A DNA stretch of 64,000 bases from Desulfurivibrio alkaliphilus AHT 2 (GTDB lineage Bacteria > Desulfobacterota > Desulfobulbia > Desulfobulbales > Desulfurivibrionaceae). Below, one piece after another: positions 7,528 to 60,843 of this stretch. Numbering within the stretch: the first letter of the stretch is position 1; the number at the start of each line of letters is the position of its first letter. The notes beneath the pieces were generated by a model. That model was not told the DNA's origin. It saw only the letters and a program-made list of their open reading frames with translations, and did no database searches. The stretch covers positions 248,001 to 312,000 of the forward strand of contig NC_014216.1 of assembly GCF_000092205.1 (NCBI RefSeq). The letters are read 5' to 3'. Position numbers and translations under genes: made by a program.

Positions 7528-8014
7528 GGTAAATAAAACTCCAGGAGCCGGGTCGTTTCGTTCGCCGGCGGGGTTGCAGATTGATGTAAAAAATGTGTAA
7601 AGATAATTATTGTAAACAAGAAGTTGTCGGCGCAATGTGGTCTTTGTGCGTCTTTTGGTCAAGTGTTTTTTTAAAAAACACCGCCTTCCGGTGAGTCGCA
7701 AAGGGCAGGTGATAAATTTAAGTTTTCCGGCTGTTAACAATTGGGCACTGCTTACAACGCAATATCGTTATCGGCACTAATTGTTTTGGCGCTATCATTA
7801 GTAACTGGAAAAAAGTTAAATTGACGATTTGTCCGGCCGGCGGTTTTCCGCTATGCTGTTCCCTGGTTGCAAGACCAAACCTGCGGCACGGCTGTTCGCT
7901 TACGTCCCATTATACCGGTGGGTTAGTACCCCTGGTGAACGGTTACACCAGGGATGGTTGCCGGGTTATGGTCGAAGTGTTTGGTTGCAGGGGAAGGGTG
8001 CGGGAGCATGAAAC
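7528..8014. other. Divergent intergenic region before hypA
   Basis: The 487-bp region separates the minus-strand GGDEF-EAL gene from the plus-strand hyp cluster and should hold both promoters. AT-rich stretches lie at 7590-7680 and 7740-7830, with TTGACG at about 7822, but no convincing spaced -35/-10 pair and no -24/-12 sigma-54 site was found. The right part is filled by a half copy of palindromic repeat A, so the hypA leader runs through that element. Confidence 0.4.
7871..7946 (+). repeat. Family A palindromic repeat, 3' half only
   Basis: This stretch matches the right half of the 153-bp family A element: AACCTGCGGCACGGCTGTTC, then the CGCTTAC arm, then a tail ending in GGTTAGTACCCCTGGTGAAC. 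The left arm is missing. It lies about 70 bases upstream of hypA. Confidence 0.75.
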
Positions 8015-9280: not shown

Positions 9281-9349
9281 AGCCTTGCACCGGTGCCGCT
9301 TGGCAGTGGTGGCCCGGAGGTGGCAGCTGCTGTTGCCGGGGAGCGGTGT

Positions 9350-11935
9350 ATGCTGACCCGCTGGTCCCTGGCGCTGGGCGGCCTGGTGCAGGGGGTTGGG
9401 TTCAGGCCCTTTGTTTACCGGCTGGCCCGGCAACACGCCCTGGCCGGCCGGGTGTGCAACAGTGCCGCCGGGGTGGAAATCGAGCTTGAAGGCCCCCGGC
9501 CACGGCTGGTCGCTTTTCTTGACGATCTGCAGCGGCAGGCGCCCCCGGCGGCGGTGATCGAGCACCTGGAGCGTCGGGAGTTGCCTCCGGTCGGGGAGCA
9601 GGGGTTTGTGATCGCCGATACCCAGTGCGGCGGCCCGCCGGTGGCCGGAGTGGTACCAGACCTGGCGGTCTGTGCCGATTGCCTTGCTGAAATGCTGGAC
9701 CCGGCCGACCGCCGCTACCTGTACCCTTTCATAAACTGCACCAACTGCGGCCCCCGTTACACCATCATCGAAAAAATCCCCTATGACCGCCCCCATACCA
9801 CCATGCGGGTCTTCACCATGTGCCGGCGCTGCCAGGCCGAATACGACGACCCCGCCAGCCGCCGCTTCCATGCCCAGCCCAATGCCTGCCCGGACTGCGG
9901 CCCCGCTCTGGCCCTGGTTTCCTTAAACCAACAGCGGCAAGATAAGGCTCCGCCACCGCTGGCCGCCGGCCCGTCAGCCGTGGCCGAGACCCGCCGCCGC
10001 TTGCTGGCCGGGGAGATTGTCGCCATAAAAGGTATTGGCGGTTTTCATCTGGCGGTGAATGGTGCCGATCAGGCGGCGGTGAAGCGGTTACGGCGGCGCA
10101 AGGGGCGGCCGGACAAGCCCCTGGCCCTGATGGTTCGCGACCTGGCCACCGCCCGGGGGTTGGTGCAACTGGGGCCGATGGAGGAAAACCTGCTGGTTTC
10201 CCCCGCTCGCCCCATTGTCCTGGCGCTCCGGCAAGCGGCGGCGTTGCCGGTGGCGGCGGCGGTGGCCCCGGGAAACCGGCGCCTTGGCCTGATGCTGGCT
10301 TATGCCCCCCTGCACCACCTGCTGCTGGATTCCGAGTTGCCGCTGCTGGTGATGACCAGCGCCAATCCCAGCAGCGAGCCGCTTTGTATCGATAACGACG
10401 AAGCCTGCCGCCGCCTGTCGAGTATTGCCGATGCCGTGCTGCTCCATGATAGGGCAATCGTGCGGGGCAACGATGATTCGGTGATCATGCAGGGACCCGT
10501 CAAAGTCATTGGTTGTGGCACCGGGGTGGGGGCCGCTAATCCCGGTAGCGGCTCATTCTCGGCGGGCATCCTGCCCGCCTCCGAGGTGCCGGCAGCCTCC
10601 TGCGCGTCCATGCGCCCGGCTGCCGGCAAACCCGCCGCTACCGGGATAGGCGCCCCCCGTCCAAGTTCAACTTTGACGTTGCCCTGGGTGATCATGGCCG
10701 GCAACGACCGGCACCCGGGGGCGGCGCCGCTGGTTATCCGCCGGGGCCGGGGCTATGCCCCTGGGCTGCTGCCTTTTTCACACCGGGGGGCGGCGGTGCT
10801 GGCGGTGGGTGGTGAGCTGAAAAACACCGTTTGTCTGGCCGCCGACGGCCGGGCGGTGATCAGCCAGCACCTGGGGGATCTGCAAAACCTGGAGAGTTAT
10901 CGCGTTTTTGGTCAAACCATTGCCGATTTGTCGCAACTGTTTGCCATTCAGCCGCAAGTGGTGGCTTATGATCTGCACCCCGACTATCTGGCTTCCCGCT
11001 GGGCCCGGCAGTGGGCGGCCGAACAGGGCCTGCCGGCCGTGGCGGTGCAGCACCACCATGCCCACCTGGCCGCCTGCCTGGCGGAAAATGAACACCAGGG
11101 TCCGGCCCTGGGGTTGATTTTAGACGGCACCGGTTATGGCCCGGACGGCAGCATCTGGGGAGGGGAGATTCTGCTGGGGGATGCCGGCGGCTTTAGCCGC
11201 TGGGGCCATTTGGAAACCATGCCGCTGCCCGGCGGTGATTTGGCGGTCCGGCAGCCCTGGCGAGCCGCCTTGGGGTTTCTGTATCAGGCCTTTGCCGGGG
11301 ACATCCCCCCGTTACCCTTCTTGGCCGAGTTGCAGGCTGCCGACAAGGTGGACTGGCAGGCGCTGCTCCCCCCGTTGCGGCAGAACATCAACTGCCCGCG
11401 CACCAGCAGTTGCGGGCGCCTGTTTGATGCCGTGGCCGCCATGGCCGGTGGCTGCCAGAAGATCAGCTACGAGGCCCAGGCCGCCGTGGAACTGATGCAG
11501 GCTGCCGACGGCCTGCAAGGCCCGCCCTTTGCTTATCGACTGATCGAAAACAAGGTGACGGAGTACGGTTTCCACGGGGCAGGCGGGCCCGGGGTGCTCA
11601 TGCAACTCAGTCCGTTGGTTTGCGAGGTGGCTGCGGCGGTGTCAGCCGGAGCGGGGCTTACGGAAATAAGTCGCCGTTTTCATGCCACCCTGGTAGATAT
11701 GTTTACGGCGGCCCTGGTCACCGCCGCCACGGCAACCGGCATCAAAACGGTGGCCCTGGCCGGCGGCGTGATGCAAAATGAGGTTTTGCTGGCCGGCTTA
11801 AAGGACAGTCTGGCCCAGGCCGGTTTGGCGGCCATGCTGCCCCGGCGCCTGCCGTCCAACGACGGCGGCCTGGCCTACGGCCAGGCGGTGGTGGCGGCAA
11901 CCGTAAGCGAACAGCCGCACCGCATCTTCGGGTGA
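9350..11935 (+). CDS. hypF: Carbamoyltransferase HypF with an internal palindromic insertion and a repeat-derived C-terminus
   Basis: HypF makes the carbamoyl group that becomes the cyanide ligands of the [NiFe] centre. ATG 9350 follows GGGGAG by a few bases. In order the protein has an acylphosphatase domain (QGVGFRPFVYRLA), two C4 zinc fingers (CADC...CTNC, CRRC...CPDC), a YrdC-like domain, and a Kae1-like domain (QHHHAHLAAC, GGVMQNEVL). At 861 residues it is about 100 longer than usual HypF. About 69 of these come from an in-frame palindromic insertion between DDSV and PLVIRRGRGYAP (residues ~380-448). The last ten (VSEQPHRIFG) and the stop codon come from a family A repeat. All catalytic motifs remain, so activity is plausible but untested. 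Confidence 0.93.
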   Translation: MLTRWSLALGGLVQGVGFRPFVYRLARQHALAGRVCNSAAGVEIELEGPRPRLVAFLDDLQRQAPPAAVIEHLERRELPPVGEQGFVIADTQCGGPPVAGVVPDLAVCADCLAEMLDPADRRYLYPFINCTNCGPRYTIIEKIPYDRPHTTMRVFTMCRRCQAEYDDPASRRFHAQPNACPDCGPALALVSLNQQRQDKAPPPLAAGPSAVAETRRRLLAGEIVAIKGIGGFHLAVNGADQAAVKRLRRRKGRPDKPLALMVRDLATARGLVQLGPMEENLLVSPARPIVLALRQAAALPVAAAVAPGNRRLGLMLAYAPLHHLLLDSELPLLVMTSANPSSEPLCIDNDEACRRLSSIADAVLLHDRAIVRGNDDSVIMQGPVKVIGCGTGVGAANPGSGSFSAGILPASEVPAASCASMRPAAGKPAATGIGAPRPSSTLTLPWVIMAGNDRHPGAAPLVIRRGRGYAPGLLPFSHRGAAVLAVGGELKNTVCLAADGRAVISQHLGDLQNLESYRVFGQTIADLSQLFAIQPQVVAYDLHPDYLASRWARQWAAEQGLPAVAVQHHHAHLAACLAENEHQGPALGLILDGTGYGPDGSIWGGEILLGDAGGFSRWGHLETMPLPGGDLAVRQPWRAALGFLYQAFAGDIPPLPFLAELQAADKVDWQALLPPLRQNINCPRTSSCGRLFDAVAAMAGGCQKISYEAQAAVELMQAADGLQGPPFAYRLIENKVTEYGFHGAGGPGVLMQLSPLVCEVAAAVSAGAGLTEISRRFHATLVDMFTAALVTAATATGIKTVALAGGVMQNEVLLAGLKDSLAQAGLAAMLPRRLPSNDGGLAYGQAVVAATVSEQPHRIFG
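10480..10696 (+). repeat. Family C cloverleaf palindromic insertion inside hypF
   Basis: The 10-bp sequence GGTGATCATG occurs at 10480-10489 and again at 10687-10696, exactly 207 bp (69 codons) apart, like a target-site duplication. Between them are nested inverted repeats. Outer arms lie at 10483-10506 and 10670-10693 (imperfect). Middle arms at 10528-10551 and 10635-10658 share TCCCGGTAGCGG with its complement. Two internal hairpins follow: 10561-10579 (GGCGGGCA/TGCCCGCC) and 10588-10627 (GCCGGCAGCC/GGCTGCCGGC). The whole stretch stays open in the hypF frame. Confidence 0.85.
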
Positions 11936-12055
11936 TCAGCCAGGCTTACGTACAGGGGGTACGCTGCGCCTGGCTGCTTACCCAAACCTGCGGCGCGGCT
12001 GTTCGCTTACGGCCCGTTAAACCTGTAGGTTAGTACCCCTGGTGAACGGTTGCCC
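11903..12055 (+). repeat. Family A palindromic repeat, full-length copy at the hypF 3' end
   Basis: This is a 153-bp element. Perfect 16-bp arms GTAAGCGAACAGCCGC (11903-11918) and its complement (11995-12010) enclose an imperfect long hairpin with an inner CGTAC/GTACG stem. A tail of about 45 bp ends in GGTGAACGGTTGCCC. Its TGA (11933-11935) is the hypF stop. It has the same length and order as the copy inside pepN at 60235-60387. Confidence 0.9.
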
Positions 12056-12252
12056 GAAACTTATAATGACAATGTAACTGATCACGGGATACCCCCTGCG
12101 TGACGATCTGCTAAGGAGTAAGCGGTCACGGGGCACCCCAGATTGCGGCAAGCAGACCGGCGCAGCGTACACCGGGTACTCAAGCCGGGCTGATCGCCGC
12201 AAGGTGGGGTGCCCCGTGATCGCTTACATGACAATCAATCGGGAGTGAGCGC
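11936..12252. other. hypF-hypC intergenic region made almost wholly of repeats
   Basis: The 317 bp hold the rest of a family A copy and a full family B copy, leaving only about 25 bp of other sequence before hypC. No promoter is evident. The hyp cluster may be transcribed through the repeats, or their hairpins may separate hypABF from hypCDE. Confidence 0.7.
12118..12227. repeat. Family B palindromic repeat (110 bp) upstream of hypC
   Basis: Thirty-base imperfect terminal arms begin GTAAGCGGTCACGGGGCACC (12118) and end in the near-perfect complement closing in GATCGCTTAC (12227). The core (GCGCAGCGTAC, GGGCTGATCGCC) matches the family A core in inverted orientation, so B looks like a relative of A with different arms. 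A loose extra arm, GATCACGGGATACCCC, lies at about 12080. Confidence 0.8.
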
Positions 12253-19021: not shown

Positions 19022-19370
19022 CACCATCTCTTGTCAGGTAATCGTTCCGCGGCACCGCATCTTCGGGCGATCCGCCAGACTTACATCCACGGGCCAGGCT
19101 GCTTGCCCGAACCTGCCTGCGGTGCTGCTGAACGATGACGGCCCGTTAAACCGAAAGGGTAGTACCCCCGGTGAAGGGTTACCTGGTCAGGCGGCAGAGT
19201 GCGCCTTCGGCTTCCTGGCTGTTTACCACCGGGTGACAGCCAGGGGCGGGCGTTTGTTAATGATTTCAGTATAATATTATTGACAACAAATACTGAATCG
19301 GACGCATCTGGCCGGAACAAATAGCTATTTTGCGCAACGTCCTCGATCTTAGCAGTTGGCCGCCTCGAAT
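19022..19370. other. Intergenic region containing a family A repeat
   Basis: About half of the 349 bp is a diverged family A element. The rest (19200-19370) is AT-richer (TAATATTATTGACAAC at about 19271-19286) and may be the 3' flank of the gene ending at 19371. No coding frame is convincing. Confidence 0.45.
19038..19184 (+). repeat. Family A palindromic repeat, diverged copy
   Basis: The order of blocks is kept: GTAATCGTTCCGCGGCACCG, CATCTTCGGGCGATC, GGCCAGGCTGCTTGCCCGAA, TGCTGCTGAACGATGACGGC, and the tail GTAGTACCCCCGGTGAAGGG. The arms carry several changes and the element is slightly short. It lies just upstream of the hybrid kinase start. Confidence 0.75.
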
Positions 19371-55522: not shown

Positions 55523-55608
55523 TCAGCCTCTCTTGTGGGGACTTGTTTGGTAGAGGAAGGTTACGGCCCGTTAAGTCTACAGGTTGCTGGCCCTGGTGAA
55601 TGGTTGCA
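55520..55608 (+). repeat. Family A palindromic repeat, internally deleted copy before mltD
   Basis: TGATCAGCC at the left matches the repeat core. The right part, TTACGGCCCGTTAAGTCTAC, AGGTTGCTGG and CCCTGGTGAATGGTTGC, is the family A tail. The arms in between are missing. The element spans the stop of the GGDEF gene and ends ten bases before the mltD ATG. Confidence 0.6.
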
Positions 55609-57939: not shown

Positions 57940-60843
57940 TTGTCCGCCGACAGCGAACTTCCCCGGCCGGTACTGCTTGCCGAGTACCGGCCGCCGTTTT
58001 TTTTGCTTGATGAGGTCAACCTGCAGGTTGAGCTTTTTGCCGATCATGCCCTGGTCCGTTCCTCTCTTTGCTTGCGCCGTAATCCGGCGGTTGACGATGC
58101 GGAAATGCTGGTGCTGGATGGCGAAGAGCTGGAGCTGCTGGAGTTGCGACTGGACGGCCAAGCGTTGCCGCCGGAGCGTTACCGGCTGGAAGGGGTCGGC
58201 AACCGGGGCCGGCTGGTGATCCCGACCCCCCCGGTGCAGTGCACCCTGGAGACGGTGAGCCGCATCTATCCTGCCGCCAATACGGCGCTTGAAGGTTTAT
58301 ATCGCTCCGGTTCGATGTTCTGCACCCAGTGCGAACCGGAAGGTTTCCGTCGGATCACCTGGTACCCGGATCGGCCCGATGTCCTGGCGCCCTTTACGGT
58401 GACCATCAGCGCCGACCGCCAAACCTGCCCGGTTTTGCTGGCCGGGGGGAATCCCGTCGGCCGCGGCGAACTGCCGGAGGGGCGCCACTGGGCCTCCTTC
58501 AAAGACCCCTTTCCCAAGCCCTCCTATCTCTTCGCCCTGGTGGCCGGTGATCTGGTGGGGGTTCACGACCGCTTCACCACCGCTTCGGGGCGGCAGGTGG
58601 CCCTGGCCATTTACGTGGAGGCCCACAATCGGGATAAGTGCGACCATGCCATGGCGGCGCTGAAAAAGGCCATGCGCTGGGATGAGGAGACCTTCGGCCT
58701 GGAGTACGATCTTGATCATTACCTGATCGTGGCGGTGGATGATTTCACCATGGGGGCCATGGAGAACAAGGGGCTCAATATCTTTAACGCCCGCTATGTA
58801 CTGGCCCGCCCGGAAAGCGCCACCGATGATGATTTTGAAAACATCGAAGCGGTGATCGCCCATGAATATTTTCACAACTGGACCGGCAACCGGGTAACCT
58901 GCCGGGACTGGTTTCAGTTGAGCCTCAAGGAAGGCTTGACCGTCTTCCGGGATCAGCTCTTCAGCCAGCAGCTGCATTCCGCGGGGGTAAAAAGAATCAA
59001 CGACGTGCGGCTGCTGCGCGAACAGCAGTTCGTCGAGGATGCCGGCCCCCTGGCCCATCCGGTAAGGCCGGAGTCTTACCTGGAAATCAACAATTTCTAT
59101 ACCCTGACCGTCTACGAAAAGGGCGCCGAGCTGGTGCGGATGCTCCACACCTTGTTGGGGCCGGCCGGCTTCCGGGCCGGGTTGCGGCTTTACCTCAGCC
59201 GCCATGATGGTTCAGCGGCGACCATCGAGGATTTTCTGGCCGCCATGGCCGAGGCCGGGGGGCGTGAGCTGGGCGCTTTTGCCCGCTGGTATGCCCGGGC
59301 CGGGACCCCGCGGTTGCAGATTACCGACGACTATGATCCCGCCGCAGGCTGTTACCGGCTGCGGGTGGTCCAGGAAATGCCGGTGCCGGCAACCACCGGC
59401 GGCGAATGCTGCGATAATGCTCAGGGGGTGGCTGAGGCGCCCCCTGCCTCGGAGGGCCGGCCGGAACAGCCTCGGCCGGTTGCGGAGGGGCGCGAAAATT
59501 TACCGCTGCTGCTGCCCCTGGCGGTGGGCCTGTTGAGCCCGGCGGGCGAGGAAGTGGCCGCAGAGTTGCTGGAATCGACCGAGTGGGAGCAGGTTTTTGA
59601 ATTTACCGGGCTCCATGCCCGCCCGGTTCCTTCGCTGTTGCGCGGGTTTTCAGCCCCAGTGCGGTTGACGTATGACTACCGCGACGAGCAACTGGGGCTG
59701 TTGCTGGCCCACGACACCGACCCTTTTTGCCGCTGGGAAGCCGGCCAGCGTTTAAGCGGCAGCCTGATTTTGGAGCTGGCCGGTCGTTGGCAAGCCCGGG
59801 AATATTTGCAACTGCCCGGAGGCTTTGTCGACACCTACCGGCAATTGCTGGCCCGGCTGCCTGGCCTGGAAGACAAGTCGTTTGCCGCCCTGCTGGTGGC
59901 CCTGCCCACCGAGGAGTACCTGGCCGAGCAGATGGCCCTTATCGATGTTGAGGCGCTCCACACCGCCCGAGAGTTTGTGCGCCGGGAACTGGCAGTGGCT
60001 CTGCGGCCGCGCTGGGAAGAAATTTATCGGAGCTTTCCCGTTGCCACCGAAGGGGAGGGCACCTATGATCCCCGTTTGGCCGGGGGGCGGCGTTTGCGCA
60101 ATCAGGCCCTTTTCTTTTTGCTGGCCCTGGCCGATGATCGGGAGCTTATCGCCCTGGCCAGGCAGCAGTTTTTTCAGGCCGGCAATATGACTGACAGCCT
60201 GGCCGCCTTGCGGGGGCTGGTGCATGCCGCCGCCGTAAGCGAACAGCCGCACCGCATCTTCGGGCGATCAGCCAGGCTTACGTACCTGGGGTACGCTGCG
60301 CCTGTCTGCTTGCCCGAACCTGCGGCACGGCTGAACGCTTACGGCCCGTTAGAGCGGCAGTTTAGTACCCCTGATGAACGGTTACCCGCGGCCCGGGCGG
60401 TGGCGGCAGAGGCGCTGGAGGAATTTGCCGCCCGCTGGGGCCATGACCCGCTGGTGCTGGATAAGTGGTTCACCGTCCAGGCCACCGCTCCCTCCCCGGA
60501 CACTTTGGAGAGGGTAGAGGCGTTAATGGCCCACCCGGCCTTTCGGCTGAGTAACCCCAACCGGGTGCGGGCCCTGATCGGGGCCTTTGCCGCCGCTAAT
60601 CCGGTGGCTTTTCACCGGGCCGACGGCGCCGGTTACCGTTTCCTGGCCGCCCAAATCATGGCCCTGGACTCCGTCAATCCCCAGGTGGCCGCCCGGCTGG
60701 CGGCCCGTTTCAGCCGCTGGCGGCGCTTTGCGGGACCACGCCGGGAGTTGATGCGGGCGGAACTGGAAAAAATCGCCACGGCGCCCAAGCTCTCCCGCGA
60801 TGTTTATGAAATGGTGAGCAAAAGCCTGGGCAGCCAGGCTTAG
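57940..60843 (+). CDS. pepN: Aminopeptidase N with an in-frame palindromic repeat insertion
   Basis: The 967-residue M1 zinc metallopeptidase has GAMENKGL (about residue 272), HEYFHNW (HExxH, about 308-312) and the distal Glu in LKEGLTVFRDQ. E. coli PepN has 870 residues. Most of the excess is a 51-residue insert at about 766-816 (VSEQPHRIFGRSARL...), encoded exactly by a 153-bp family A repeat in the C-terminal helical domain. About 25 extra residues lie near 490-515. The start is TTG 57940 with AAGGAG. The catalytic core is untouched, so the enzyme may still work. Confidence 0.93.
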   Translation: MSADSELPRPVLLAEYRPPFFLLDEVNLQVELFADHALVRSSLCLRRNPAVDDAEMLVLDGEELELLELRLDGQALPPERYRLEGVGNRGRLVIPTPPVQCTLETVSRIYPAANTALEGLYRSGSMFCTQCEPEGFRRITWYPDRPDVLAPFTVTISADRQTCPVLLAGGNPVGRGELPEGRHWASFKDPFPKPSYLFALVAGDLVGVHDRFTTASGRQVALAIYVEAHNRDKCDHAMAALKKAMRWDEETFGLEYDLDHYLIVAVDDFTMGAMENKGLNIFNARYVLARPESATDDDFENIEAVIAHEYFHNWTGNRVTCRDWFQLSLKEGLTVFRDQLFSQQLHSAGVKRINDVRLLREQQFVEDAGPLAHPVRPESYLEINNFYTLTVYEKGAELVRMLHTLLGPAGFRAGLRLYLSRHDGSAATIEDFLAAMAEAGGRELGAFARWYARAGTPRLQITDDYDPAAGCYRLRVVQEMPVPATTGGECCDNAQGVAEAPPASEGRPEQPRPVAEGRENLPLLLPLAVGLLSPAGEEVAAELLESTEWEQVFEFTGLHARPVPSLLRGFSAPVRLTYDYRDEQLGLLLAHDTDPFCRWEAGQRLSGSLILELAGRWQAREYLQLPGGFVDTYRQLLARLPGLEDKSFAALLVALPTEEYLAEQMALIDVEALHTAREFVRRELAVALRPRWEEIYRSFPVATEGEGTYDPRLAGGRRLRNQALFFLLALADDRELIALARQQFFQAGNMTDSLAALRGLVHAAAVSEQPHRIFGRSARLTYLGYAAPVCLPEPAARLNAYGPLERQFSTPDERLPAARAVAAEALEEFAARWGHDPLVLDKWFTVQATAPSPDTLERVEALMAHPAFRLSNPNRVRALIGAFAAANPVAFHRADGAGYRFLAAQIMALDSVNPQVAARLAARFSRWRRFAGPRRELMRAELEKIATAPKLSRDVYEMVSKSLGSQA
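60235..60387 (+). repeat. Family A palindromic repeat, full-length copy inside pepN
   Basis: This copy is 153 bp and begins GTAAGCGAACAGCCGCACCG, the same start as the copy at 11903. Arms, inner CGTAC/GTACG stem and tail (ending GATGAACGGTTACCC) are in the same order. The hypF-terminal copy has TGA after TTCGGG; here it is CGA, so the pepN frame reads through. The length is exactly 51 codons. Confidence 0.92.

Follow-up and report, generated by a model that had tools for sequence, protein, structure and literature searches.

The hypF gene of the soda-lake bacterium Desulfurivibrio alkaliphilus AHT2 (9350-11935, forward strand, within the 64,000-nucleotide stretch of DNA analysed here, referred to as the window) encodes the carbamoyltransferase for [NiFe]-hydrogenase maturation and is read in frame through a strongly folding insert. 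The locus raises the question of what this insert is, by what process it could have entered the gene, and whether the protein tolerates it. The insert very probably belongs to a dispersed family of palindromic, non-autonomous, MITE-like elements, the fold of which would be used in mobilisation.

Anatomy of the insert and its relatives in the genome

The hypF frame opens with a GTG at 9293, the likelier start being the ATG at 9350, and continues to 11935 with no stop anywhere, the insert included. The Pfam domains of the product (Acylphosphatase, zf-HYPF, Sua5_yciO_yrdC, HypF_C and HypF_C_2) flank the insert on both sides, in agreement with the preliminary description, in which the frame had been regarded as kept. 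The 10-bp direct repeats recorded there were also found to be exact: the left (10480-10489) and right (10687-10696) copies of GGTGATCATG, both on the forward strand, are identical and lie at a spacing of exactly 207 bp. The 207-bp segment had been taken as a palindromic element with direct repeats; both features stand, but the element proper comprises 197 bp (10490-10686, forward strand) and the second GGTGATCATG is a target-site duplication. The element is bounded by terminal inverted repeats matching CAGGGCAACGTCAAAGTC at 15/18 positions on the left (10490-10507, forward strand) and 17/18 on the right (10669-10686, reverse strand).

Inverted-repeat arms were found at 10515-10552/10634-10671 and 10482-10506/10670-10694, together with two inner hairpins, and the folding energy of the 217-nt stretch is -138 kcal/mol (z = -9.6), a value equalled by none of 200 shuffled sequences. 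The nested arms and two hairpins of the cloverleaf-like inside proposed earlier are thus present, but the four-arm cloverleaf is not, the inner fold being a three-way junction. The core of this junction (10538-10648; L001 1549-1659) matched covariance model R1 with 113.0 bits. The outer stem P1 is formed by 10528-10552 (5' strand) and 10634-10659 (3' strand), followed inside by the invariant junction strand CTCATT (10552-10557; TCATT in 47/47 copies, the leading C in 44/47), hairpin P2 (10558-10586, CTCGGCGGGCATCCTGCCCGCCTCCGAGG, with a TCC loop and a TCC bulge) and hairpin P3 (10587-10628, TGCCGGCAGCC ... GGCTGCCGGCA, with TCC in the loop), all on the forward strand.

The AHT2 genome is one contig of 3,097,763 bp, which matches the published genome size (PMC5016858). 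When the 197-base element was used as query, 41 places with 72-100% identity were found in this genome, a figure that includes a few fragments and one copy split in two, so that about 40 copies, each some 150-235 bp long, can be counted. A single-copy origin, by which the mobile interpretation could have failed, is therefore not the case. A search with the hairpin motif gave no other copy within the window. Outside AHT2, the complete element is frequent only within the genus, with 23 matches in strain AMeS2 (D. dismutans), and more distant members of the family hold only its central part. Two further AHT2 copies are missing at the syntenic AMeS2 sites (L022/L098 and L013/L084), and the copies L009 and L033 are common to both strains.

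A three-way-junction core in several phyla

Pairing in the core is retained despite extensive sequence change. In an alignment of 25 own copies, 19 of 55 pairs had changes on both sides that preserve pairing, and among 28 diverse copies this was true of 28 of 38 pairs. Over 84 distinct copies, 88.8% of cells were paired, compared with 60.8% in shuffles and 33-46% with slid partners, and the covariation score was 0.647 versus 0.154. In this first set, some letters were constant because the search pattern required them. A further set, of 47 copies mostly fetched by the covariance model alone, but with a model that had been seeded with pattern hits, gave the same covariation outcome and retained the unpaired letters as well, i.e., TCATT in the junction, TCC in the P2 loop, TCC in the bulge (46/47) and TCC in the P3 loop (about 43/47), along with the CC ahead of the closing G. 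The core is a combination of fixed unpaired letters and freely varying yet complementary stems.

A search with the core-hairpin pattern returned 53 stretches from genomes labelled Desulfobacterota, Thermodesulfovibrio and other Nitrospirota, Nitrospinota, Spirochaetes, SAR324 and Plasticicumulans, with outer arms that differ from each other, are mostly 18-33 bp long and are almost perfectly complementary. Overall, the core has a patchy occurrence among records labelled Desulfobacterota, Nitrospirota, Nitrospinota, Spirochaetes, SAR324 and one gammaproteobacterium, often with 9-124 copies per genome; the model search was positive in 12 of 395 Desulfobacterota genomes, several of these with at least nine copies, nine being the most that were scored in any one genome. 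Copy numbers of 34, 27, 28 and 29 were counted in Nitrospirota M_MetaBat.26, Thermodesulfovibrio S141, Yes70-02 and a Spirochaetes MAG, respectively, and 124 in the MAG OS_PC_MetaG.mb.142 (7.4 Mb, possibly a mixed bin). The elements of the last MAG end in GTAACTATTCA and are flanked by an 8-bp duplication, which matches at 8/8 in about half of the 20 fetched copies; in copies with both termini the mean match was 0.79 at length 8 and about 0.4 at other lengths. One core is therefore carried by elements with different termini. In a Nitrospirota MAG (L119, 1-8000), seven core copies lie in 8 kb, occupying most of the intergenic gaps and in both orientations, and the P2 loop of two of them contains an additional hairpin module, GGGGTCCCCGAAAAGTC...GACTTTTTGGGG.

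As elements whose termini are unrelated carry this one core, its fold would be used during mobilisation itself, most likely as extruded or single-stranded DNA. The two orientations beside same-strand genes in L119 and the wobble mismatches, of which G-T and A-C both occur and in both senses, are read as favouring use as DNA. It is possible, though less than an even prospect, that the core is a distinct, previously undescribed selfish nucleic-acid module of several phyla, serving or recruiting several unrelated transposases from the apex of palindromes whose arms are free to change if they stay paired, and repeatedly adding peptides to working proteins in the Desulfurivibrio lineage. No description of the element or of the core was found in the open-access literature.

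Two other explanations of the fold have to be weighed. Template switching in replication could correct palindromes and by itself account for the complementary stems, which would leave the fold functionless. Compensatory changes do occur between orthologous AHT2 and AMeS2 copies, the flanks of which differ by about 10%, and the pair variants are nearly all Watson-Crick, as such correction would produce. However, template switching explains neither the fixed unpaired letters across phyla amid varying stems nor the patchy multi-copy presence, and we regard it as an unlikely account, if the strongest of the alternatives.

Alternatively, the core could be a regulatory RNA, with transposition only spreading the regulator. 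On the minus strand, the P2 loop, bulge, P3 loop and junction present unpaired GGA or GG segments resembling CsrA/RsmA-binding sites. The TCC triplets (GGA on the opposite strand) of P2 loop, bulge and P3 loop are near-invariant while the stems vary, and 12 of 14 element-rich genomes encode CsrA, so that the core may have an RNA role. Against a regulator of this kind, copies stand in both orientations beside same-strand genes in L119, in the hypF copy it is the TCC strand, rather than the GGA strand, that is present in the mRNA, GGA is lacking from some P3 and P2 loops, and a search for CsrA in G431, with its 28 copies, found none. Among own copies, A-C variants (wobble on the minus strand) occur at more sites than G-T, but the bias is not clear-cut and the wobble pairs could not be used to assign an RNA strand. 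On balance the regulatory RNA appears slightly less probable again than template switching, and a fold used in mobilisation is preferred to both.

No known RNA family was found for the core either. No family of Rfam 15 matched core copies from several phyla above its curated threshold, and the only hits (E up to 1-10) were chance-like. The Rfam family TwoAYGGAY is similar in having two hairpins with GGA loops, as on the minus strand here, but it was likewise not matched. A conserved minus-strand peptide, MxAENE, was considered and rejected, as the codons downstream did not appear conserved by eye. The puzzle posed by the core lies in fixed unpaired letters, varying paired stems, patchy multi-copy presence across phyla, different termini and the lack of an Rfam entry. 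Its solution may be a principle of recognition common to unrelated transposases, or a widespread RNA.

Transposition and the search for an enzyme

The preliminary description supposed a small mobile palindrome with a 10-bp target duplication, and this was borne out by the some 40 copies, by empty sites and by duplications of 9-10 bp at other copies. Of the ten own copies in which both termini are recognisable, hypF and L004 have a duplication that matches at 10/10 positions, L023 one at 9/10, and L006 and L017 one at 8/9; a random pair of 10-mers would match at 9/10 or better with P of about 1e-4. In L017, both ends agree with CAGGGCAACGTCAAAGTC at 18/18. Terminal inverted repeats of this kind together with the 9-10-bp target duplication make the element a non-autonomous, MITE-like transposon. 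Many other copies have decayed or different ends, and since most own copies are without clear termini and duplications, some may have decayed or spread by other routes.

MITEs such as QMITE of Coxiella, Correia/NEMIS, RUP and ERIC are similarly short and non-coding, with terminal inverted repeats, target duplication and a strong fold. The hypF element differs from them in that no parent insertion sequence was found among the own-genome pattern matches, and in that its apical core also occurs in elements that have unrelated termini and make duplications of another length (8 bp instead of 9-10 bp). Specifically, among 42 pattern matches in the own genome, none had a second terminus at the distance expected of an insertion sequence, and a transposase matching the element was likewise not found. 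An ISAs1-family parent, suggested by the CAGGG ends, was rejected, because the ISAs1-type domain PF13808 was absent from all 38 genomes searched. Viral spread was rejected after the pattern was not found in 2.9 million viral contigs, and plasmids gave one weak pattern match only. No neighbouring protein was shared across taxa, other than seemingly ubiquitous families (ABC transporters, response regulators) that recur beside copies.

The hairpin structure and the presence of two Y1_Tnp genes (about 320 aa) in the AHT2 genome could suggest a REP/REPIN-type repeat moved by a RAYT-like Y1 tyrosine transposase. However, no core copy lies within 1.5 kb on either side of either gene, and Y1 enzymes are not known to make target duplications, which renders this origin very improbable. 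The dispersed hairpins of REP/REPIN systems with RAYT are comparable, but REPs are not known to make target duplications. They are also shorter, at 20-40 bp (PMC3733652).

The course of events favoured for the MITE-like element would be as follows. A putative trans-acting transposase made its cuts at the terminal inverted repeats and placed the 197 bp in hypF, whereby 10 bp of the target were duplicated, as the anatomy shows. Because element and duplication add up to 207 bp, equal to 69 stop-free codons, HypF has gained 69 residues in a surface loop, probably remaining functional. Copies that break genes would be purged by selection, so that mostly intergenic and a few in-frame copies remain.

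HypF function and insertions in other proteins

The stretch from DDSV through RR.RGY covers 21-27 residues in HypF of the relatives that could be read and 95 in AHT2, consistent with the earlier remark that DDSV and the following motif are normally close together. The insert is missing from HypF of every relative in which the hairpin motif was readable, so that empty sites exist; at this place in AMeS2, GGTGGTGCTG is present once. An intrinsic domain or linker expansion of HypF that was never mobile, as the open frame and the retention of all HypF domains might suggest, can be dismissed in view of the near-copies throughout the genome, including between genes, the target duplication at the insert and the empty sites of relatives. 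As DDSV and RR.RGY are only a few residues apart in aligned solved HypF proteins, the insertion site is, judging from the alignment, a short loop.

No second full-length hypF was found in the AHT2 genome. The sequenced AHT2 culture had H2 as electron donor, and growth on H2 in combination with no other HypF gene suggests that the altered HypF probably works. The case for this activity is indirect, as an [FeFe] hydrogenase would not need HypF. Growth of AHT2 on H2 probably depends on the altered HypF, which makes its tolerance directly testable.

Read-through copies inside genes number 2 of about 40 in the own genome, though 90.6% of that genome is coding. The second lies in an aldolase-II/short-chain-dehydrogenase fusion, relatives of which are without the insert, and is read in the same element frame as the hypF copy. 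In AMeS2, in-frame copies were found in a BadF/BadG-type activase, in aminopeptidase N (pepN) and in a transglutaminase-domain protein, and the RNase H gene of the MAG UBA5628 also reads through a copy, giving five in-frame insertions beyond hypF, all in the Desulfurivibrio lineage. The inserts in the AMeS2 and UBA5628 genes are mostly located between Pfam domains, that of aminopeptidase N being at the edge of DUF3458. The tryptic peptide MDAQEAAGASEAGR is predicted within aminopeptidase N of AMeS2, a strain whose proteomes are described in PMC12142623. Although 23 of 33 copies are open in the hypF frame, an element designed to be frame-open was considered and rejected, as the number of open frames was 2.06 against 2.66 in shuffles and thus not higher.

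These insertions support the analogy with Rickettsia palindromic elements (RPE) that had been drawn at the outset, as far as behaviour is concerned, i.e., in-frame insertion that is tolerated. RPE and similar Wolbachia elements are palindromes some 100-150 bp long that lie in intergenic DNA as well as in frame in unrelated conserved genes, and ERIC and a 107-bp Neisseria repeat also occur in frame (PMC2229807, PMC10969869). The hypF element resembles RPE and the Wolbachia elements as a small palindrome tolerated both between genes and in conserved protein genes, whereas it is longer (about 200 bp), G+C-rich, equipped with a conserved three-way-junction core and hosted by a free-living haloalkaliphile. 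It further differs from RPE in its 9-10-bp target duplication and small intragenic share. The likeness to RPE is functional only. Rickettsia and Wolbachia are the best-known cases of in-frame palindromic insertion into working proteins, to which a cultivable, free-living bacterium is added here.

Copies within the two Desulfurivibrio strains also vary in make-up. An identical 32-base hairpin module, GTCGGCAGTTCTGCCGACAAAAACAGACTAAG, is present at exactly the same junction in L023, L029, L031, L032 and L033, which otherwise belong to different subfamilies; the rest of the own genome is without it, and so is the AMeS2 orthologue of L033. Such modules suggest that copies exchange sequence (gene conversion) or that the fold receives insertions. 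At two shared sites (L166/L024 and L173/L014), copies are nested or in tandem, AMeS2 seemingly having an element next to a 3' remnant of a second element, against only one copy in AHT2. In the intergenic region common to L005 (AHT2) and L107 (AMeS2), the elements have opposite orientations, which suggests independent insertion or inversion. Mini versions, in which the two termini are a few dozen bases apart without the core, were observed at 243799-243854 of the own genome and at L037. Finally, a second, unrelated family of dispersed palindromic repeats (about 110 bp) adjoins many copies of the hypF element and occurs in the window at 7862-7944, 11935-12056, 12118-12227, 19093-19183, 55561-55607 and 60235-60388.
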